Under the pieces are notes generated by a model. The model was not told the DNA's origin. It saw only the letters and a list, made by a program, of their open reading frames with translations, and did no database searches. Shown in pieces: positions 3,001-61,952 of a stretch of 64,000 nucleotides of DNA (its first letter is position 1; each line of letters opens with the position of its first letter). The stretch covers positions 1 through 64,000 of the forward strand of contig NZ_JAUTAE010000002.1 of assembly GCF_030818415.1 (NCBI RefSeq), given 5' to 3'. The position numbers and the translations under genes were made by a program. This DNA comes from Sphingomonas sp. SORGH_AS_0950. GTDB taxonomy: Bacteria > Pseudomonadota > Alphaproteobacteria > Sphingomonadales > Sphingomonadaceae.

Positions 3001-5939
3001 CCTCCATTGGAGGTATAGATGGCATTGGAATAGGAGCGGCCGCCATAGCTGGCATAGCCCAGGTCGACATCGCCGGTGATCGTGCCCGCATTGACGATCT
3101 GGCCACCGCCCAGCCGGATGGCCAGTTGCCCGGTCGCGCCCGCGATCGTGCCACCGGCCAGATTGCGCAGCGTGGTGCCGTAACTGTAATTCTGGCCGAT
3201 CGCGATGCCGCCCGTGCTGGCGATGCGGCCGCTATTGTCGATCGTGCCGGTCGTATAGTCCATGATGACGGCGGTGCCCGCCACCTCGATCGTCCCGCTG
3301 TTGACCAGCGTGGTGAAGCCCGAGACGCCGGTCGCGGCGCGGCCGCCCGAGGCCTGGACGATGCGGCCGCTATTGGTGATGCTCTTGGCATATTGGATGC
3401 CCGCCGCGCCGTTCAGCGTGATCGTGCCGTCATTGGTCACGCTCTTGCCGCCCGAAATGGCGGTCAGCTGGCCATAGGTGGTCGGCCGCGTGTCGGCGAC
3501 GCTGATCGTGCCCGCATTGGTGAAGCTGTCCTCGCTGCCCAGCGAAACGGCATTGCCCGCATAGACGTTCGTGTTCGACACCGCGAGCGACAGCGCGCCG
3601 CGGCTGGTGATGGTCAGCGCATTGGCGGTATAGGTTTCGCCCGGTGCCTGGCTGCGCGAGGTCAGCTGGATCACCGAACCGGCGGTGCTGGCGATATCGG
3701 CGGTCAGGTCGACCGTCCCCTGCCCCGCCAGATAGAGCGGTCGCGTCGAGGCGGCGCCGGTCAGGGTCAGCTTGGCCTTGTCGAACAGTTCATAGCCGAG
3801 GGTGACGAACGGGCTGGTGGTCGGCAGGGTCGCGGCCGTGTCGGCCCGCACGCGCAGGCGCAGCCCCGCGCTCGCCCCCGACACCGTGCCGGTGATCCCG
3901 GCGAAGCGGTCGCCGCTGCTGCCGGCGAGTTCGGTGACGAGCAGATCGCCGCTCGTCAGCGTCAGATTGCCGTTCAGCACACCGCCCGGCAGCGCGAAAT
4001 AGGTGTTGTTGTTGCCGTAATAGCTGGTCGACGAGGACGGGCCGAAGGTGACGTCGCCGTTGATCGTGCCCGCATTGGCGATGCGGGCATTGAACACCGC
4101 GAAATCGCCGTTCGGCCCGATACCGCGCGTGCCCCCGGTGACGACGCCGCCCGCCTGGTTGTTGAGCACGCCATAATAGTCGATGAACACGCCGGTCCCG
4201 GTCGCGGTGATCGTGCCGCTGTTGCTCAGGCTGCTCGACAGCTTGAGCCCGGCGGTCGTGCCCTCGATCCGGCCGGTGTTGGTCCAGTTCGAGCCCGACG
4301 AGCCCGACAGGATCGCACCCACCCCGCCGGTCGAGCGGATCGTGCCCGAATTGGCGAAGCTCGGCCCGAACAGCGACACCGCGGTGCCGCTGGCGGTGAT
4401 CGTGCCCGAATTGACGAACGCACCCTGCGAGTTGAACGAGACGCCGCCCCCGGTCGCGGTCACGGTGCCGCTATTCTCGAAACGGTTCGCATAGTTCATC
4501 GAGACGGCATAGAGGCCGATCTGCGCTCCCGTGCCGATGATGCTGCCCGCATTGGTGACGCTGGGCGAACCGGACGAACCATATTCATCGGACAGCACGG
4601 TGCCGGTGTCGCTCAGCGCGGCGTTGTTGACGACCGCTCCGCCGCCCGCGACCCGCAACGGCCCCGCCACCGCAAAGTCCTTGGCCAAGGTGGTTGTCGT
4701 CTTGGTATCGGGAGCGAGGGTCAGCTGTTCGAAATTGGTCGGCAGAGTCAGCGCCGAGGACAGGGTCGTATCGCTGGTGAAGCGGATGCGCAGCGTGTCG
4801 GTGCCCGCCCCGCCGTCGATCGTACCGCTGATCCCGGTGCGGATCGCGCCGTTCGCATAGCCGACGATCAGCGTGTCGTTGCCCGATGAATAGGATACAT
4901 TGCTCGAGCCGAAGCTCACATTACCGACAATCGTGCCCGTGCTGTTATCGATGACGGTGTTGCCGAACGAGACCGGATTTGGTGTCGCAATGACATCGCC
5001 CGTGATCGTCCCGGAATTGGTCAAACTAAAGCCCACACCCGCCTGGATCGCGGTCGTACCAGCGGTCGTGATCTGGCCACCCGCTGCGTTGATTATTGTG
5101 AGCGATGTGCCGGTGATGGCCGCGCCAGTTCCGCCATTGCTGATCGTGCCGCTGTTGGTCAGCGTAATCGAGCGTGCATTGGCCAGCGTCGCGGCGCTGC
5201 CGCTGTTGCCGATCGTGCCGCTGTTCGTCCAGCCATAGCCAGAGAACGCCGCGCTATAGGTCGCGCCCACATCGATCGCGCTGCGGCTGCCGCCATCGAT
5301 GGTGCCGGCATTGGTCAGCGTGCCGACGGGGCCGCTGATCGCGCCGATCGTGCCGCCTGCGCGGTTGGTGATCGTCTGGAAGCCCGCATAGGTCGGGTTG
5401 CTCGACAGCAGCGCATAGCCGTCCGAGCCGGTCCCCGTGCCGCTGATCGTGCCGCTATTGTCGATCGACGCGGTCGTGCTGCCATAGCCGTTGCCGGTCT
5501 GGCCGATGACGATGCCGTTCGTGCCGCTGATGCTGCCGCCCGCGCGCACCGTCACCGACAGCTGGCCGCTGGAATAGCTGTTGGCGGTGGTCTGGCGGAC
5601 GAACTGCACGCCGGTCTGGCCTGCGCCATCGACCCGGCCGCCCACGGTCAGCACCCCATAGGGATAGCTGGTGGCCGAGGTCGGGATCGCGAAGGCGATG
5701 GCGGGTGCGCCGCTGTTCGTCACCGTCGCCCCGGTCGCCACATCGACCGTGGTGCCCGAGGTCGTGACGGTCAGGCCGTTGCTGTCGGTGCCGCTGCACG
5801 TCGTCGTCGTGTTGGCCTGGGTCGGATCGGGGGTGCATTGGGCGAAGGCCGGGCCCGCCACCATCACCGCAAGCAGAATGGCACTCGATTCCAGAGCGCG
5901 CGCCTTCACCTGCCGAGCGCGCGACATTGCCTTCACCAT
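1..5939 (-). CDS. Giant autotransporter-like repeat protein (C-terminus outside window)
   Basis: About 1,979 codons are open in one reverse frame and continue past the left edge. The protein starts with a hydrophobic signal peptide (residues about 17-34, ending AGPAFAQ). Dozens of degenerate NSGTI/NAGTI-type repeats follow to about residue 1,450, as in passenger domains of type V autotransporters that fold as beta-helices. After that come glycine/aspartate stretches such as GDGNDR, GAGDD and GGAGND, which resemble calcium-binding repeats. The C-terminal beta-barrel expected of an autotransporter is not in the window, so secretion type is inferred. Likely role: cell-surface adhesin or matrix protein. 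The start ATG at 5939 precedes the signal peptide directly. A 1,147-codon open frame on the opposite strand is only its antisense shadow. Size and repeats make assembly errors possible. Confidence 0.85.
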   Translation of the reverse strand, partial: MVKAMSRARQVKARALESSAILLAVMVAGPAFAQCTPDPTQANTTTTCSGTDSNGLTVTTSGTTVDVATGATVTNSGAPAIAFAIPTSATSYPYGVLTVGGRVDGAGQTGVQFVRQTTANSYSSGQLSVTVRAGGSISGTNGIVIGQTGNGYGSTTASIDNSGTISGTGTGSDGYALLSSNPTYAGFQTITNRAGGTIGAISGPVGTLTNAGTIDGGSRSAIDVGATYSAAFSGYGWTNSGTIGNSGSAATLANARSITLTNSGTISNGGTGAAITGTSLTIINAAGGQITTAGTTAIQAGVGFSLTNSGTITGDVIATPNPVSFGNTVIDNSTGTIVGNVSFGSSNVSYSSGNDTLIVGYANGAIRTGISGTIDGGAGTDTLRIRFTSDTTLSSALTLPTNFEQLTLAPDTKTTTTLAKDFAVAGPLRVAGGGAVVNNAALSDTGTVLSDEYGSSGSPSVTNAGSIIGTGAQIGLYAVSMNYANRFENSGTVTATGGGVSFNSQGAFVNSGTITASGTAVSLFGPSFANSGTIRSTGGVGAILSGSSGSNWTNTGRIEGTTAGLKLSSSLSNSGTITATGTGVFIDYYGVLNNQAGGVVTGGTRGIGPNGDFAVFNARIANAGTINGDVTFGPSSSTSYYGNNNTYFALPGGVLNGNLTLTSGDLLVTELAGSSGDRFAGITGTVSGASAGLRLRVRADTAATLPTTSPFVTLGYELFDKAKLTLTGAASTRPLYLAGQGTVDLTADIASTAGSVIQLTSRSQAPGETYTANALTITSRGALSLAVSNTNVYAGNAVSLGSEDSFTNAGTISVADTRPTTYGQLTAISGGKSVTNDGTITLNGAAGIQYAKSITNSGRIVQASGGRAATGVSGFTTLVNSGTIEVAGTAVIMDYTTGTIDNSGRIASTGGIAIGQNYSYGTTLRNLAGGTIAGATGQLAIRLGGGQIVNAGTITGDVDLGYASYGGRSYSNAIYTSNGGTLTGNLRFGDGSDLFVETDGQSGVSGTIDGGGGFDIYRHAFTKSTTATLGTLTAVNFEREDLQAIGADTVVTIQSQTALASLGILGDGQIVNTANVDGDLVLGDSYYSYYQLQPQAMLAALTNQAVVKGAISGQVSRFTNSGTVGDAALKRTAVSIYAVGDLSFTNSGSILNDASRRGVNLSVNGGAITATNSGSIAQGFNAFASDYSYYGTTPPDAPQPQKIALTNSGTIASTDEGRSGVLLQLYNDLGGSIQFDNSGTVTQGVNAYAGRYTYYGTPASDAARSYAIAVTNSGSITATGQGRSAALLTIDDYRGTGGSIRLDNSGTIDASGTSAYGVRAGFNGSGTATTGAQSIAITNSGTIRANGGGVTITDPYAGASVPQDPTAPTTYIAAAVSVFGNGTATATITNAATGTIEATGPLSVAVRTNGAALDLTNAGTIRGGAGTTLAANDTLVRQIGSPYLAGAIHSIGATDDRIVNTGSIFGSIALGDGNDRIENYGRIEGNVFLGAGDDTFLHRASATLVGTVDGGTGTNSLIVDATGGGTVNGDQFVNFQRFNQVGQGNVTYAGTFRFDTIGVAGGTVTVAAGQTLTSTGPVTITGTDANETVVNSGTIAGSVALGGGNDSFVEGPNSRVLGTLDGGTGTNLYGVLLAGDRSGIGQRSNFQQLAVTGTGTLSLTLDQSFDTVALAGTGLNVALAGNRIGSVTGSDAAEQLRVDGDIASVSLGAGDDLLALGTTNAAGRYDGGAGTDSLRFTANAPVVLSGLATGFETVSLTGNALTVTGSLGSQGAPLGFGDGDTALTVARGGTLAGVIDLGAGNDSFRLAAGSVLIGSVAGGAGNDTATLELAGNQMLAAGTLTGFETLATEGTGALTLTGAQSYAQVNAATDLTIASGSSLTAGQVAFTGGNQRFTIAGTFAGAVDGGAGTDTIALSGGTAAAPVAFTNVANVEALAMTGGYATVSGNAAFGAVDMTSGRLVGFAGSTMSAAQFLVRQGAT

Positions 5940-16018: not shown

Positions 16019-16034
16019 GTTTCCCCGGGGAAAC
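16019..16034. other. parS: parS-like centromere site 1
   Basis: Perfect 16 bp palindrome GTTTCCCCGGGGAAAC, 82 bp before the parA start. The same 16-mer occurs twice more, between parB and repA (18435 and 18474). The outer arms GTTTC/GAAAC are those of chromosomal parS (core ACGT), but the core is CCCGGG. Position and exact triplication point to the ParB binding site of this replicon. ParB binding is inferred. Confidence 0.75.
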
Positions 16035-16115
16035 ATGCCTTCCCCCTTCCCCCACCTTGCCCGATTGAATGAACTTTGCCATTAACCACCCCCAAAAGCT
16101 TCAAGGGGTGCGCGA

Positions 16116-17324
16116 GTGGCGGAAGATCATGCAATGCTGTCCCAGATCGGGGATCTGGCCAGCGCGGGCGAGCGGATGATCGAGCGGTTGCGGCGCAAGG
16201 CGTTCCTGCCCGAAAGCCGGAAAGGTCTGCACGTCCGCTTCGGGATTGCCGAGGCCGCGCAGCTGCTCGGCTGTTCGACCAACCGCATCCGCATGGCCGA
16301 GGAGGATGGCCGCCTCCCCCCTGCCCCGACCACCGACAATGGCCGACGCCAGGGCTATACGGTCGAGGAGCTGCTGCACATGCGCGAGGTGCTGGGCGCC
16401 TCCCCCGCGCGCGCGCCGCTCGACATTCCGGCGATCATCGCAGTGCAGAACTTCAAGGGCGGCGTCGGCAAGTCGACCGTCACCACCCATCTCGCCCATT
16501 ATTTCGCCGTGCAAGGCTACCGCGTGCTGGTCGTCGATTGCGACAGCCAGGCGACGACGACGACTTTGTTCGGCTTCAACCCGCATTTCAACGTCACGCG
16601 CGAGGAAACGCTCTACCCCTATCTGTCGATCGACCCGACCCAGACCGACCTGGCCTATGCGGTCAAGCCCACCCCCTGGCCCAATGTCGACCTGATCCCG
16701 TCCAATCTCGAACTGTTCGATGTGGAATATGAGCTGGCCGCAGCGGGCAGCGATGGCGGATCGGTGCTGGCGGCCCGCTTCCGCAAGCTGAAGCGCGGGC
16801 TGGCCGACCTGGCGCGGAATTACGACGTGGTGCTGCTCGATCCGCCCCCTGCCCTCGGCACGATCAGCCTGGCGGTGATGCAGGCGGCCAATGCGCTGCT
16901 GGTGCCGATGGCCGCGACCACGCCCGATTTCTGTTCGACCGTCCAGTTCCTGTCGATGATGGATCAGGTGCTCAACCAGCTGACCGGGGCGGGCATCGAG
17001 GTCGATTACCAGTTCGTCCGGCTGATCTGTTCCAAGTTCGACGGCAACGACCCCAGCCATGCCATGGTCCGCGCGATCATGGAGCAGAGCTTCGGCCCCG
17101 CGCTCCTCCCCGTGCCGATCCTGGAATCGGCCGAGATCAGCCATGCCGCGATGCGGATGATGACCGTCTACGAGCTGGAAAAGCCGATCGGCACGCCCAA
17201 GACGCACAAACGCTGCCGCGCCAATCTGGACGAGGCGATGCGCCAGGTCGAGCAGCTGGTCCGCCAGAGCTGGGGCCGGGTCGAACCGCTGAGCGAAGAG
17301 GCGGTGATCCATGCCGCGGCTTGA
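16116..17324 (+). CDS. parA: ParA partition ATPase
   Basis: A 402-residue type Ia ParA. An N-terminal helix-turn-helix/MerR-like DNA-binding part (FGIAEAAQLLGCSTNRIRMAE, about 43-63) allows operon autoregulation. The deviant Walker A is FKGGVGKST (about 114-122), Walker A' is VVDCDSQA (about 144-151) and Walker B is VVLLDPPPAL (about 239-248). With ParB it moves plasmid copies apart over the nucleoid. The GTG start at 16116 follows AAGGGG. The stop lies 59 bp before the parB start, which together with parS-like sites on both sides of parAB defines a partition operon. N-terminal DNA-binding ParA proteins are typical of plasmids rather than primary chromosomes. Confidence 0.95.
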   Translation: MAEDHAMLSQIGDLASAGERMIERLRRKAFLPESRKGLHVRFGIAEAAQLLGCSTNRIRMAEEDGRLPPAPTTDNGRRQGYTVEELLHMREVLGASPARAPLDIPAIIAVQNFKGGVGKSTVTTHLAHYFAVQGYRVLVVDCDSQATTTTLFGFNPHFNVTREETLYPYLSIDPTQTDLAYAVKPTPWPNVDLIPSNLELFDVEYELAAAGSDGGSVLAARFRKLKRGLADLARNYDVVLLDPPPALGTISLAVMQAANALLVPMAATTPDFCSTVQFLSMMDQVLNQLTGAGIEVDYQFVRLICSKFDGNDPSHAMVRAIMEQSFGPALLPVPILESAEISHAAMRMMTVYELEKPIGTPKTHKRCRANLDEAMRQVEQLVRQSWGRVEPLSEEAVIHAAA

Positions 17325-17383
17325 TCGGCTTCCCCTTTCCTACACGACAATGTTCTGCCTATGTTCCGGGCGGGAGGCATAAG

Positions 17384-18433
17384 ATGGCGCGTAAACAATC
17401 CGATTATCTGGCGGCCCTGCTGGCGGAGGAAGAGGGCGACGCCCCCTCCCCCAGCCCGGCCCGCGAGACCGTGGCGGAACGCAGCCGGGGCACGACGCTG
17501 CTCGGCCGCGAGTCCGCGCTCGCCCGCGTCGCCAGCGGCGAGGTGCGACAGGTCACGCAGCTGTTGCTCGACCCGGCGCGGGTGAAGATTTGGCCCGGCA
17601 ATGCCCGCAATTACGACCTGCTGACCGAGGCGCATTGCCGCGAGCTGATCGACTCGATCATCGCCGAGGGGGGGCAGAAGGTCCCCGCCGTGGTCCGCCG
17701 GATCGAGGGCGATCCCGATCATGACTATGAGGTGATCGCAGGCACGCGGCGCCACTGGTCGATCAGCTGGCTGCGCGCCAACAGCTATCCCGACATGGTC
17801 TTCGTGGCACAGGTCGCGCAGCTGGACGACGAGGCCGCGTTCCGCCTCGCCGATCTGGAGAACCGCGCGCGCGCCGATGTCTCGGACTATGAGCGGGCGC
17901 GCAATTACCTGGCCGCGCTGACCACCCATTATGGCAACCACCAGACCCGCATGGCCGAGCGGCTGAAGCTGTCCAAGGGCTGGCTGTCCAAGATGCTGAA
18001 GGTCGCCGCGCTGCCCGACGAAGTGGTCGCCGCCTTCGCCTCGCCGCATGAGGTGCAGCTGAAGCCCGGCTATGCGCTGGCGCAGGCGATGCAGGACAAG
18101 GGCGAGGCGTCGGCCATCATGAGCGTGGCTCAGTATATCACGCGCCAACAGGCCGAGCGGCGCGAGGCGGGGCAGTCGCCCATCCCGGCCAGCGAAGTGC
18201 TCCACCGCCTGCTGACCGCGCGCAAGATGATGCTGGGCGAGGATGGCGAGCCGGAACGCTACAGCTATCACAACCGCTATGGCCGCCCCGTATTGTCGGT
18301 CCAGTCGGCCAATCGCCAGGGCGTGACGGTGCGGCTTCATGCCGGTTCGGGCGCGGATGTCGAGGAAATCGTGACGGCGCTGCGCGGCGCTCTGGCGCAT
18401 CTCGAGCAGGCGGGCAGGGGGCTTCAACCCTGA
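17384..18433 (+). CDS. parB: ParB centromere-binding protein
   Basis: A 349-residue ParB. The N-terminal CTP-binding/ParB-Srx domain includes a TRRHWSISWLRA segment (about 122-133) corresponding to the family's GERR-type motif, and ENRARADVSDYERARNY (box III region). The helix-turn-helix is at about 190-210 (MAERLKLSKGWLSKMLKVAAL), and a C-terminal dimerisation region follows. It would load on the GTTTCCCCGGGGAAAC sites next to the operon and activate ParA. The ATG at 17384 is preferred over an upstream in-frame start because GGGAGG lies 6-7 bases ahead. It is followed within 2 bp by the second parS-like palindrome. Confidence 0.93.
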   Translation: MARKQSDYLAALLAEEEGDAPSPSPARETVAERSRGTTLLGRESALARVASGEVRQVTQLLLDPARVKIWPGNARNYDLLTEAHCRELIDSIIAEGGQKVPAVVRRIEGDPDHDYEVIAGTRRHWSISWLRANSYPDMVFVAQVAQLDDEAAFRLADLENRARADVSDYERARNYLAALTTHYGNHQTRMAERLKLSKGWLSKMLKVAALPDEVVAAFASPHEVQLKPGYALAQAMQDKGEASAIMSVAQYITRQQAERREAGQSPIPASEVLHRLLTARKMMLGEDGEPERYSYHNRYGRPVLSVQSANRQGVTVRLHAGSGADVEEIVTALRGALAHLEQAGRGLQP

Positions 18434-18434
18434 T

Positions 18435-18450
18435 GTTTCCCCGGGGAAAC
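18435..18450. other. parS: parS-like centromere site 2
   Basis: Exact copy of GTTTCCCCGGGGAAAC, starting 2 bp after the parB stop codon. Confidence 0.75.
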
Positions 18451-18473
18451 ACGCTTGCCCGCCCATCTTGCAT

Positions 18474-18489
18474 GTTTCCCCGGGGAAAC
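18474..18489. other. parS: parS-like centromere site 3
   Basis: Exact copy of GTTTCCCCGGGGAAAC, 23 bp after site 2 and 20 bp before the repA start. It could also let ParB influence repA expression. Confidence 0.75.
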
Positions 18490-46540: not shown

Positions 46541-46985
46541 CTCTTTCCATTTGGCAAGATGGTGTCATTCGAATCTGGCACCGCTATTCTAAAATTGATA
46601 ATATTTCTTATGTTAAATATTCTGGCGCGGTCAGGGTGTTACGTATATTGTGCACAACATGGTGCACATCAAACGACAGTCAAACAACCGTAATAGCCTG
46701 ATCGCAGCGCGAATCCGGTCTTGAGCCTCTCTGCAAGCGGCTGCGTCAGGCTCCCGCACCAGTTGCCCGCCGGTCACCCTATGACGCAGAGGCCGTCCAT
46801 GGACGACCCATATCGAGCAGGAAATGAGGGCCCGAATATACGGCCAGGAATGGGACCCATCCGAACGTCGTGGTCGATCGCCGACCGCCTGGCGCGGTTT
46901 GGGTTTTCTTTTTCGTAAGATTTTGTAAAGAAGCATGGCTAACGCAGGCGAAGCCATTGTTTTCCAATGGGAAGATGTGTTTCAA
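46541..46985. other. Gene-poor AT-rich stretch left of the recombinase module
   Basis: No convincing gene is seen. The composition is lower in GC than the neighbours (for example 46590-46680 and 46905-46985), which suggests foreign DNA. Confidence 0.4.
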
Positions 46986-47004
46986 AATAGCCAAAACTGT
47001 AACA
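46986..47004 (+). repeat. Left arm of a 19 bp perfect inverted repeat around the recombinase gene
   Basis: AATAGCCAAAACTGTAACA. Its exact reverse complement lies at 47740-47758. The two arms enclose the recombinase gene at 47.1-47.7 kb. Confidence 0.9.
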
Positions 47005-47023
47005 TGCCGCAATATGATTGTGT

Positions 47024-47047
47024 AAGTCCTTGACCCTCCAAGGACTT
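47024..47047. terminator. Hairpin downstream of the recombinase gene
   Basis: Perfect 9 bp arms AAGTCCTTG and CAAGGACTT around a 6 bp loop, 40 bp beyond the recombinase stop. There is no T-run, so it may be a weak terminator or an accessory recombination site. Confidence 0.4.
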
Positions 47048-47086
47048 GCCTGGCGCAGTCATGGGCGTCGATACGTCCCGCTTGCC

Positions 47087-47656
47087 TCAGACTCCGTGCC
47101 ACATGCGTTTGGCGAGGTTTCGTTCTTCGTGCCCCGTGGCGTGGGTGTAGATCGCGGTCGTCTTGATGTCGGCATGGCCGAGCCAGCGCTGGACCATGTT
47201 CAGGGGCACGCCGGACTGCACGGCGTTGACGCCAAAGGCATGGCGCAAGCCTTTGGGGGTCGCATAGCTTCCCCGGATTCCAGCGGCTTGCATGACCTCG
47301 CATATGCGGCGATAGCCGGTCATCCGGCACCAGGGGAATAATCGTTCGGGCGGCAGCTGGCCCTTTTCCAGCCCATGGCGCAACTTGCTGATGATCGATC
47401 GTTTGACCGGGACCGATCGGAACATGACTTTATCCCTCTTCTTCAGGCATTTGATGACGATGCACTGTTGATGGAAGTCGATATTGCTTTCCTCCAGCGC
47501 CAGCGCTTCGGATATCCGGCATCCGGTATAAGCAACGATCAGGCAGAATATTTCTATCTCGGGAGGATAGCATCGCGTCAGCTTGATGAACGCTTGCAGC
47601 TCGTCCCGCGTCAGATACTTCCGTTGACCCTTCGCGTCGTACATCGACCAAGGCAT
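47087..47656 (-). CDS. Short tyrosine recombinase (FimB-size)
   Basis: A 189-residue site-specific recombinase that is almost only a catalytic domain: TGCRISEALAL (catalytic Arg I), a beta-strand Lys region (IKCLKKRDKVMFRSVPV), GLRHAFGV (His/Arg box II, preceded by Lys instead of the first His), WLGHADIKTT (box III His) and IYTHA with the nucleophilic Tyr. The usual N-terminal core-binding domain is missing, as in FimB/FimE invertases (~200 residues). The ATG at 47656 is chosen because MPWSMYDAKGQRKYLTRDEL starts the domain; codons upstream look non-coding. It is enclosed by a 19 bp inverted repeat. Most likely a DNA invertase or integrase of a small element. Confidence 0.85.
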   Translation of the reverse strand: MPWSMYDAKGQRKYLTRDELQAFIKLTRCYPPEIEIFCLIVAYTGCRISEALALEESNIDFHQQCIVIKCLKKRDKVMFRSVPVKRSIISKLRHGLEKGQLPPERLFPWCRMTGYRRICEVMQAAGIRGSYATPKGLRHAFGVNAVQSGVPLNMVQRWLGHADIKTTAIYTHATGHEERNLAKRMWHGV

Positions 47657-47739
47657 GTTCGAAGCCTCTCCCCGGTTTGAAGGTCCCGAAGATAGCGGGA
47701 TTATGGTTTGAATTCTGTTCAATGGCTGACGACCCGGTT

Positions 47740-47758
47740 GTTACAGTTTTGGCTATTG
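47740..47758 (-). repeat. Right arm of the 19 bp perfect inverted repeat
   Basis: TGTTACAGTTTTGGCTATT, the reverse complement of 46986-47004. It lies between the recombinase leader and the EAL gene. Confidence 0.9.
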
Positions 47759-47806
47759 CGTCACCGGGCGGCGATCTGCGGCGGATCGCGACGACAGGGG
47801 GGGAAG

Positions 47807-48685
47807 GTGGCGCGACATTCCGACGACGGGCCATGGGAGGACCGCGAGGATACCGGGGCCGAGCGCGTGGCGCTGGCCGAGCGCGGCGATGAAGGGGCTA
47901 TGCTGGCATGCCCGTCGGCATCGATGGCGCTGGTGTGGCAACCCGTCCGCGACGTGCGGCCGGGCGGCGCGATCCTGTATCACGAAGGGCTGGTGCGCTT
48001 CCCCGAGACCGATGGCTGGGACGCCGCGCCGCACGCGACTCTGGCGATGATCGAGCGTTGCGGCGGAAGCCTGTCCTTCGACCGGCTCATCGTCCGCCGC
48101 GTGATCGAAGCGCTGCGGTCCGATCCCGTCGCGGTCCTCGGCGTCAACCTGTCCGCCGCCAGTACCGATCCCGATGGCTGGAGCGATGTGGTGGCGATGC
48201 TGCGGAGCGATCGCACGATCGCGCACCGCCTGATCGTCGAGATCACCGAAACCGCGCCCTTTGCCGACATCGACAGGGCTGCCTCATTCTGCACGCAGCT
48301 CCAGGCCTGCGGCGTGCGCGTCGCGCTGGACGATTTCGGGGCGGGGCATTCGTCCGTCGCCACCGCGCTGGCGTTGCAGCCCGCGATCATCAAGATCGAC
48401 GGCGCGTTCGTGCAGCAGGCCGGGGCGAGCGCCACCGGCGCGGCGCTGTTCCGGCATTTGGTCGGCATCGCCCGGTCGATCGGCGCCTTGACCATCGTCG
48501 AAGGGGTCGAGACCCGCGAACAGGCCGATATCGCCCAGGACGCGGGAAGCCTGTGGCAGCAGGGCTATTTCCATGGCAGGCCGATGCGGCTGCGCCCCGC
48601 CAGGACCCAGGCCGATTTCATCGCGTGGAGCGACCCCGCGCATCGCGCCGGGGCGGGACTGTTCACCCCCATCTCCTGGCGATGA
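47807..48685 (+). CDS. Stand-alone EAL-domain c-di-GMP phosphodiesterase
   Basis: A 292-residue protein dominated by an EAL domain from about residue 45. The key residues of active enzymes are kept: YHEGL (EAL variant with Glu), GVNLS (Asn), EITET (Glu), LDDFGAGHSS (both Asp), IKIDGAF (Lys), VEGVET (Glu) and QQGYFHG (Gln). It should hydrolyse c-di-GMP and so lower exopolysaccharide and biofilm output. There is no sensor domain beyond a short basic N-terminus. GTG at 47807 follows a G-rich ribosome-binding region; an internal ATG near 47899 is possible. The promoter region contains the right arm of the recombinase-flanking inverted repeat, so expression may depend on orientation. Confidence 0.85.
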   Translation: MARHSDDGPWEDREDTGAERVALAERGDEGAMLACPSASMALVWQPVRDVRPGGAILYHEGLVRFPETDGWDAAPHATLAMIERCGGSLSFDRLIVRRVIEALRSDPVAVLGVNLSAASTDPDGWSDVVAMLRSDRTIAHRLIVEITETAPFADIDRAASFCTQLQACGVRVALDDFGAGHSSVATALALQPAIIKIDGAFVQQAGASATGAALFRHLVGIARSIGALTIVEGVETREQADIAQDAGSLWQQGYFHGRPMRLRPARTQADFIAWSDPAHRAGAGLFTPISWR

Positions 48686-60417: not shown

Positions 60418-60540
60418 ATTCCTCCCCTGCAAGGGGAGGGGGACCATGCGCAGCATGGTGGAGGGGTGTCCCGCTCGCGAGAGGGTGACACCCCTCCGTC
60501 AGGCCTTCGGCCTGCCACCTCCCCTTGCAGGGGAGGAATG
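60418..60540. repeat. Dispersed palindromic repeat, copy C
   Basis: Full copy with outer arms CCTCCCCTGCAAGGGGAGG and CCTCCCCTTGCAGGGGAGG and the inner pair GGAGGGGTGTC / GACACCCCTCC. It lies between the convergent small secreted protein gene and ugd and may act as a transcription terminator for both. Confidence 0.85.
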
Positions 60541-60548
60541 GGGAGCGA

Positions 60549-61715
60549 TCAGTCCGAGCCGAAGATATCCCGCGTGAACAGCTTGCCCGCGACATCGGCC
60601 AGTTCGGGGTCGTTGCGATTGGCGATGATGACGTCGCAATCGGCCTTGAACGCGGCCAGGTCGCGCACCACCCGCGAGCCGAAGAACGCGTCTTCGTGCA
60701 GGGACGGCTCGTAGACCACGACCTCGATCCCCTTGGCCTTGATCCGCTTCATGATCCCCTGGATCGAGGATTGGCGGAAATTGTCCGACCCCGCCTTCAT
60801 CGTCAGGCGGAAGATGCCGACGCGGCCGGGCTTCCTGGCGATGATCTGGTCGGCCAGGAAATCCTTGCGGGTGCGGTTGGCGTCGACGATCGCGCGGATC
60901 AGGTTCTGCGGCACGCTGGTATAATTGGCCAGCAGCTGCTTGGTGTCCTTGGGCAGGCAATAGCCGCCATAGCCGAAGCTGGGATTGTTGTAGTGCGTGC
61001 CGATGCGCGGGTCGAGGCCGACGCCCTCGATGATCTGGCGCGTGTCCATGTCGCCCGCGATCGCATAGCTGTCGAGTTCGTTGAAGAAGGCGACGCGCAT
61101 CGCGAGATAGGTGTTGGCGAACAGCTTGATCGCCTCGGCCTCGCGGGTGCCGGTGAACAGGACCGGGATGTCGGCCTTTTCCGCGCCCTGGACCAGCAGC
61201 TCGGCGAAGATCCGCGCCCGCTCCGACTGTTCGCCGACGATGATCCGCGACGGGTGGAGATTGTCGTGCAGCGCGCGCCCCTCGCGCAGGAATTCGGGGC
61301 TGAAGATCACCTGTGTCGTATCCAGCCGCGCGCGGACATCGTCGACGAAGCCGACCGGGATGGTCGACTTGACCACCACGGTCGCTTGCGGCGCATGGGT
61401 CTTGGCCAGGGTGATGACCGCCTCGACCGAGTGGGTGTTGAAGCTGTTGGTGTCGATGTCGTAATTGGTCGGCGTCGCGACGATGACGTAATCGGCGCCC
61501 GCCAGCGCCTCGGCCGCATCGGTCGTGGCGGACAGGTCCAGGTCGCGGCCGGTCAGGAAGTCCTGCAACTCGGCATCGATGATCGGCGAGGTCCGCGCAT
61601 TCACCATCGCGACCCGCTCGGCCGAGATGTCGACCGCGACGACCCGGTTGTGCTGGGCCAGCAGCACGGCGTTGGACAGTCCGACATAGCCCAGGCCGAA
61701 AACGGCAATCTTCAT
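60549..61715 (-). CDS. ugd: UDP-glucose 6-dehydrogenase
   Basis: A 388-residue enzyme that oxidises UDP-glucose to UDP-glucuronate with two NAD+, giving the precursor for glucuronate in exopolysaccharide. It has an NAD-binding motif at the N-terminus ([11 protein letters not shown], about 6-16), VKSTIPVGF (about 115-123), [21 protein letters not shown] (substrate binding, about 141-161) and the catalytic Cys in [14 protein letters not shown] (about 247-260). The length equals that of the short E. coli-type Ugd. It stands alone on this replicon, 15 kb from the main polysaccharide genes, but would serve them. Other UDP/GDP-sugar dehydrogenases share these motifs; Ugd is the best fit. Confidence 0.92.
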
Positions 61716-61839
61716 TTCAACATCCCCAGACGGGGCGGGCCATCGGTCCGTCCGTCAGCTTGCGTTGCACCTTGTCCCGCGTGCCATGCATGAGCGGTCC
61801 CGCAATCGCAAATGCCGTGGCGAAGGAATGCGCCCCCCT

Positions 61840-61952
61840 TTCCTCCCCTGCAAGGGGAGGTGGCAGGCCGGGGGCCTGACGGAGGGGTGTCACCACTCGC
61901 GAGAATGGGCGCGATCACGACTGGGGTCACCCCTCCACCATGCTGCGCCCTC
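61840..61952. repeat. Dispersed palindromic repeat, copy D
   Basis: Left arm CCTCCCCTGCAAGGGGAGG and GGAGGGGTGTC intact; the right half is altered (GGGGTCACCCCTCC, then ACCATGCTGCGCCCTCC). It lies between ugd and the end of the phytase gene. Confidence 0.8.

Follow-up and report, generated by a model that had tools for sequence, protein, structure and literature searches.

A compact tyrosine-recombinase segment as the probable inversion switch of an adjoining EAL-domain gene in sphingomonads

The window analysed here, by which we mean the whole stretch of 64,000 nucleotides, comprises bases 1–64000 of a 73,558-bp contig from a genome of 4.39 Mb. Within this window, AATAGCCAAAACTGTAACA is found at positions 46986–47004 on the forward strand and once more at positions 47739–47757 on the reverse strand, forming a perfect 19-bp inverted repeat (100% complementary). 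The perfect repeat described in the original prediction is real, with the correction that its right arm, given there as 47740–47758, lies at 47739–47757. Enclosed by the two arms is a gene on the reverse strand (47090–47656) for a tyrosine recombinase of 189 residues which, as had been proposed, is made up of the catalytic domain only (PF00589, Phage_integrase, E 2.9e-23, residues 14–174); an alternative TTG start gives a 211-aa form. Located 49 nt outside the right arm, on the forward strand (47807–48685), is a gene with a GTG start codon encoding an EAL-domain protein of 292 aa, a predicted c-di-GMP phosphodiesterase. On the other side, outside the left arm, are a region in which no gene can be clearly made out and frames resembling, by eye, insertion-sequence transposases.

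The arms form part of two slightly larger recombination sites. The left site (46978–47004, forward strand), which is the 3′ site of the recombinase, consists of an outer box TGTTTCAA, a core TAGCCAA (46988–46994) and an inner box CTGTAACA, whereas the right site (47739–47765, reverse strand), its 5′ site on the EAL side, consists of the inner box CTGTAACA, the same core (47749–47755) and an outer box GGTGACGC. Measured from arm to arm, the presumptive invertible segment, delimited by comparison with flipped relatives, spans 772 bp (46986–47757, no strand assigned). Between the recombinase stop codon and the left arm, a hairpin with a 9-bp stem, AAGTCCTTG/CAAGGACTT, can be read directly at 47024–47047 and is a possible insulator or terminator.

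A chance origin of the repeat had been considered unlikely, and our controls bear this out: the 19-bp arm had no match in 100 dinucleotide-preserving shuffles, and enclosing arms are far scarcer at shifted control positions (see below). Allowing up to three mismatches, the window holds no further match to the arm beyond the two described. Five perfect 19-mer inverted pairs lying 40–1000 bases apart were counted in the real window and none in 20 shuffles of two-base blocks; one of the five corresponds to the arms and the other four to a single 22-bp inverted pair (60418–60439/60518–60539, from 15-mer seeds), indicating that perfect repeats of this kind are rare in the window, not unique. The region 60418–61934 as a whole contains a cluster of inverted and repeated stretches with many 15-mer pairs and bears no relation to the segment; elsewhere, the palindrome GTTTCCCCGGGGAAAC occurs in several copies within 16019–18475.

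A second copy of this arrangement is present in the same genome. On contig C1, a paralogous recombinase gene (131081–131641, reverse strand; 74% protein identity to the window copy) is enclosed by another perfect 19-bp pair of arms, AATAACCAAAACTGTATCA, and accompanied by a separate EAL gene; layout and divergent orientation match those of the window copy. The alignment of the two copies covers the segment and the EAL side and stops at the other arm, suggesting that the unit which was copied or acquired is the segment plus the EAL gene. In both EAL proteins, all 12 catalytic and metal-binding positions checked are as expected for an active enzyme. A partial arm match elsewhere on the same contig (C1:3227172, 3 mismatches) was set aside, as no second site lay nearby among the genome-wide matches and the surrounding stretch looked unrelated.

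In an alignment of ten recombinase sequences, R47, K72, R138, H161 and Y170 (window numbering), which we take to be the catalytic residues, are invariant. Residue 135, at the box II position, is Lys or Arg in all ten; in tyrosine recombinases His is usual there (PKGLRH). By sequence, the closest solved structures are XerA, XerC-like, XerD and XerH, and the window protein remained far under the cut-offs of the XerA, XerC, XerD and integron models, with matches confined to the catalytic part. Against the NCBIfam models of tyrosine-type DNA invertases it reached 47.2 and 44 bits, compared with cut-offs of 222 and 221.

Using a search profile built from the ten sequences (the window recombinase, its paralogue and eight relatives), we matched 376 relatives in species genomes; the top 80 loci were retained, 66 of which entered the main set. 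In a genus-level draw, 8 of 151 genomes contained the recombinase (E 1e-40), and in a family-level draw 19 of 397 did (E 1e-45). We defined enclosing arms as an inverted repeat with one copy located 40–130 bp ahead of the start of the recombinase and its partner 10–330 bp past the matched end. Such arms were present at 47 of 81 distinct loci (the window's two included), as compared to 20 of 438 shifted controls within the same loci, and the difference sharpened with the score, from 34 loci versus 2 controls at score 15 to 24 loci versus none at score 17. Excluded from the 81 were ten recombinase rows duplicating others and L041, a second Sphingobium faniae contig. A further 19 recombinase loci checked apart (14 left over from the best-80 set, L018, L019, L013, L123 and L137) had no enclosing arms, bringing the overall count to 47 of 100 and indicating that enclosing arms belong to part of the recombinase family; on the recombinase tree, loci with arms and loci without arms each cluster. 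In sphingomonads, the segment measures about 770–975 bp.

Enclosing arms were absent from all 13 recombinase relatives found on phage contigs, and among the Komagataeibacter, Acetobacter and Methylobacterium loci of the main set the only enclosing match was that of L081, which had the lowest score and is doubtful. Among plasmid records, nothing matched the window cassette closely at the nucleotide level, and the match to the flipped L034 region was limited to 291 bp of a single Sphingobium plasmid; a protein search returned 2206 plasmid records with some tyrosine recombinase match, a single one of which lay in the 60–80% identity band. At L107, L079 and the viral contigs L162, L163, L164, L166, L167 and L169 we observed a different arrangement, two inverted site-like stretches about 120–145 bp apart and both upstream of the recombinase gene (e.g. 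at −166 and −43). This pairing in other orders and on phage contigs is a fimS-like layout; the pair of L079 is weak, with 6 mismatches.

When the sites of 46 rows were registered (leaving aside L066 and L081, whose sites are doubtful), they resolved into inverted boxes of G-T-K-A-C type, with an inner box like CTGTAACA, around a core of 7–8 bp. The cores vary between loci (TAGCCAA, TATCCAA, TGGGCAA, TCCCCAA, TGGGGTA, TAACTAG and others) and agree between the two sites of one locus: identity over 8 bp was 0.97 within loci as compared to 0.61 between loci, a value equalled in none of 5000 permutations (33 loci, after leaving out 13 of the 46 rows, namely 12 close relatives and L041). The bases directly outside and inside the core show no agreement between the two arms of a locus. 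Strand exchange by tyrosine recombinases needs a centre that matches its partner.

The original prediction had proposed that the segment should occur in both orientations if it were part of a DNA inversion system, and this was borne out in other sphingomonad genomes. To compare loci, we cut each one at the core into flank, segment and flank; 14 pairs were run, drawn from the 90 top rows of one locus listing plus further loci. In three groups of relatives, both flanks are conserved and have changed places with respect to the segment, and the alignments extend as far as the core, so that the segment is cut exactly at the arms and its surroundings are left unchanged. The flanks of L033 (a Sphingosinicella MAG) and L034 (Sphingobium indicum BiD32) aligned over 4357 bp (93.3%) and 4727 bp (93.7%), and those of L031 (Sphingomonas sp. 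ATCC 31555) and L039 (S. pokkalii) over 2133 bp (89.4%) and 1718 bp (77.2%). The third group sets oL150 against four Sphingosinicella loci, with 4783 bp (86.4%) and 3142 bp (88.2%) aligned in the case of L044; the weakest of these comparisons is that with L046, in which only 271 bp (77.1%) aligned on one side. The pairs W1/W2 and L063/L068 were not counted, as their flanks are not conserved on both sides. Six further groups whose flanks can be aligned on both sides share one orientation: the Sphingosinicella loci compared with each other, L052/L053, L058/L061, L067/L071, L036/oL142 and L072/L074.

In the draft genome containing L034, codon 11 of the recombinase is a stop (5031–5033), whereas the frame is open from a possible start at codon 34; the gene may thus be non-functional at present or may be read from this later start. 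Neither this stop nor the 19 armless loci touch the flips themselves, and our estimates for the readings discussed below are therefore unchanged by them.

Both junction types were also found in a single assembly. In the draft of Sphingobium faniae, a 100% identical segment of 898 bp is carried by contigs C85 and C89, which have different flanks at the 5′ site and both run out at the 3′-site core; the assembly contains only four copies of the site. The simplest reading is that the sequenced culture held both orientations, while two true copies could in principle give the same picture.

We then considered the gene next to the segment. Among the 48 site-bearing rows, 28 have an EAL gene facing away from the segment, located on the 5′ side of the recombinase in 21 (divergent) and on its 3′ side in 7 (tandem). 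An in-frame EAL start codon lies 24–54 nt from the arm in 27 of these 28 rows, with none listed for oL143a. The remaining 20 rows are without EAL match (L041, L039, the doubtful L066 and L081, and 16 others); the EAL-side flank of L039 is syntenic with that of L031, and on this basis its tree label was set to divergent by hand. At four more loci an EAL gene is present and the arms fall below threshold, one of them being L035, in which a matching pair of sites is visible by eye. Mapped on the recombinase tree, the tandem state takes 7 changes for 7 rows, a number as low in 500 of 500 label shuffles; it is no more clustered than shuffled labels, as expected of a fast-turning element.

The EAL proteins themselves are not uniformly intact. 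Catalytic residues are lost beside the site in L058, L061, L067, L071, L031, L045 and oL154b, and the proteins of L035, L047, L054 and L062 aligned partly or with changes; the target is therefore not a phosphodiesterase activity in every case. In L058, L061, L067, L071 and oL154b, the degenerate gene has been kept in the same place. Beside the 5′ site of L050 is a 245-residue gene without Pfam match that resembles, by eye, a decayed EAL protein, and the EAL partner of L034 is a longer protein, with 195 residues preceding the EAL match. In other orders (Rhodospirillales, Parvibaculum), what lies past the 5′ site frequently looks, by eye, like a small lipoprotein-like protein; the neighbours tested, those of L051, L059, L063, L064 and L072, matched no Pfam family at its cut-off.

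A candidate element through which inversion could act on the neighbour lies at the 3′ site. In 39 of 44 rows (close relatives included), a −35-like TTG pointing outward occurs at one fixed offset inside this site, whereas at the 5′ sites no triplet, whatever its letters or its offset, was shared by more than 10 of 46 rows. In sphingomonad rows, the outer edge of the site, 17 bases beyond the −35-like box, is occupied by a hexamer starting with TA; L035, which fell below the search threshold and is outside the 44-row set, reads TTGCCC-17-TATTTT by eye. In the window, the putative promoter crosses the left site on the reverse strand (46984–47012), with TTGCGG at 47007–47012, a spacer of 17 nt and TATTTT at 46984–46989. 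The recurrence of the TTG box at one offset suggests an outward promoter which would face the EAL gene only when the segment is flipped. A general promoter scan left this proposed promoter unflagged in 9 of 12 cases. Towards the EAL gene, the −10 element is weak: a flip of the window would form TATTGC, and L034 reads TAGACC. In many cases the −10 towards the other flank is the stronger of the two.

Collectively, these observations make it probable, in our estimation, that the segment is a self-contained invertible switch which turns the adjoining EAL gene reversibly on and off. According to this model, the recombinase encoded within the segment would recombine the two inverted sites around their 7–8 bp core, and inversion would turn the whole segment end for end, recombinase gene included. 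What the sequences show directly are the sites, the flips in relatives and the conservation of the EAL neighbour; that this enzyme cuts the sites, that the strain studied here, whose two copies have one and the same orientation, still inverts the segment, and the promoter with its ON state and the consequences for c-di-GMP, are inferences. Only about 50 bases separate the EAL start codon from the site, which gives the gene scarcely any space for a separate promoter. The −35 element just inside the 3′ site would travel with the segment, with the −10 element at the outer edge contributed in part by the flank. The EAL gene would thus be ON if the recombinase points towards it and OFF if the two are divergent, and in the window and C1 copies, whose putative promoters face away from the EAL gene, it is predicted to be OFF; the flipped window would read TTGCGG-17-TATTGC into the EAL gene.

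The same inversion can also be read in the opposite sense: a promoter in the stretch that separates the right arm from the start of the recombinase would drive the EAL gene, which would then be ON in the divergent state and OFF in the tandem one. The weakness of the EAL-facing −10 formed by the flip would agree with this, as would a TTGAAG-16-GATTAT motif directed towards the EAL gene at the 5′ end of the recombinase (by eye) and the divergent state being the commoner one (21/28). Nevertheless, nothing is conserved in the 5′ inner stretch that would compare to the TTG box of the 3′ site (10/46 versus 39/44), and we regard the reversed polarity as unlikely, if deserving of attention.

A further reading accepts the inversion and makes the EAL gene a passenger, the switch mainly setting the expression of the recombinase or of a gene on the other flank. 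One feature pointing this way is a recombinase frame that continues across the 3′ site, as it does at 17 of 44 loci (L032, L033, L036, L037, L039, L040, L043, L044, L046, L047, L048, L052, L053, L054, oL142, oL147a and oL150; the count excludes both rows of S. faniae, where the sequence breaks off ahead of any stop codon), so that a flip would alter the C-terminal tail of the recombinase. Sixteen of the 17 share one frame, in which the site is translated as L-I-Q-F-W-L or similar; substitutions in the tail are spread nearly evenly over codon positions, which gives weak support for coding selection, and the frame of the window copy does not run through the site. The degeneration of some EAL neighbours and the different neighbours in other orders, often small and lipoprotein-like by eye, with a regulator at L056, would fit as well. 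Set against these points are the near-constant distance between EAL gene and site in both states and the fact that, among the loci listed, the other flank is common only to close relatives; we therefore hold the passenger reading to be improbable.

The original prediction had also raised a minimal, integrase-only mobile element, that is, a cassette with terminal inverted repeats moved by its recombinase. Two copies in one genome and the patchy distribution across the genus and family draws are what such an element might produce, whereas inverted sites would lead to inversion, not excision, and the flipped relatives retain both flanks. Moreover, there is no target duplication at the ends (identity of the outer 8 nt was 0.15 within loci and 0.26 between loci), and the two copies in this genome share the EAL gene, so the moved unit exceeds the segment. 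Mobility of this kind thus appears very improbable. That the 19-mer is a fixed operator of the recombinase gene, or a product of chance, has next to no probability left: one site does lie upstream of the recombinase start, but the other lies past its 3′ end, the two centres co-vary, shifted controls are low and flips were found.

Returning to the self-contained switch, several genomes (L043, L057/L145, L035, L147) carry beside it a further, diverged member of the recombinase family. The diverged copies tested (L013, oL143b, oL147b) had no arms detected in the enclosing position, and the neighbour and the switch recombinase possibly form a FimB/FimE-like pair.

In bacteria, c-di-GMP commonly governs the choice between swimming and settling. 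If the switch operates as proposed, one sphingomonad clone could hold both kinds of cell through a heritable and reversible switch of c-di-GMP breakdown. Moreover, a compact tyrosine-recombinase cassette with recognisable sites would make phase variation predictable from sequence alone in Alphaproteobacteria. A wider reading, possible in our view rather than probable, joins these elements into a broad, undescribed alphaproteobacterial family, with a split promoter whose ON level is set by the flank and, in many copies, with recombinase tails rewritten on inversion. Under this joint reading, c-di-GMP breakdown in sphingomonads with two copies would become a multi-state inherited lottery, the same module would drive lipoprotein-like genes in other orders, and the flip-rewritten tail could bias switching according to state.

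Our search of the open-access journal literature, to which the word undescribed refers, returned nothing on invertible tyrosine-recombinase elements in Sphingomonas and nothing on phase variation by invertible recombinases in Methylobacterium; other papers listed dealt with C. difficile or general topics, or appeared unrelated. FimB and FimE of Escherichia coli are catalytic-domain-only tyrosine recombinases of ∼200 residues acting on inverted sites; in the fim switch, the recombinases lie outside the promoter segment and fimbriae are switched. The likeness to FimB/FimE that had been suggested holds for the window recombinase as a short, catalytic-domain-only enzyme of FimB-like size; unlike in fim, its gene is inside the segment, and the invertase-model cut-offs are missed by far. 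Providencia stuartii, a member of the Gammaproteobacteria, has a site which likewise encloses a recombinase and differs in its fimbrial neighbourhood and imperfect repeats. According to an inversion survey, this putative invertible segment measures 844 bp, encloses the recombinase gene near fimbrial genes and is bounded by 14-bp imperfect repeats, the fim invertible segment is roughly 300 bp long, and four Alphaproteobacteria samples gave no inversion signature (PMC5903667).

In its layout, with the recombinase gene inside a segment of ∼1 kb and a neighbour gene being switched, the sphingomonad segment resembles Hin/fljBA of Salmonella. The sites of Hin are 26 bp long. The invertible segment, with Hin inside, measures 966 bp in the survey (PMC5903667), and Hin is described as a serine recombinase regulated by an enhancer (PMC3798978), whereas the window enzyme is a PF00589 tyrosine recombinase.

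With regard to the switched function, the nearest parallel is the pdcB switch (Cdi2) of Clostridioides difficile, together with the Cdi3 site, in which short inverted repeats likewise flank DNA whose inversion switches a c-di-GMP phosphodiesterase. PdcB combines a degenerate GGDEF with an EAL domain, according to two reports (PMC9286219, PMC5903667), and one of them describes the element as 174 bp long and situated 840 bp upstream of pdcB, its recombinase being then not identified (PMC9286219). Compared with the pdcB switch, the sphingomonad segment is longer (about 770–975 bp), carries a recombinase and is found in Alphaproteobacteria. If the switch proposed here is true, it would parallel C. 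difficile pdcB in a distant lineage and with another layout, a convergence on the same target.
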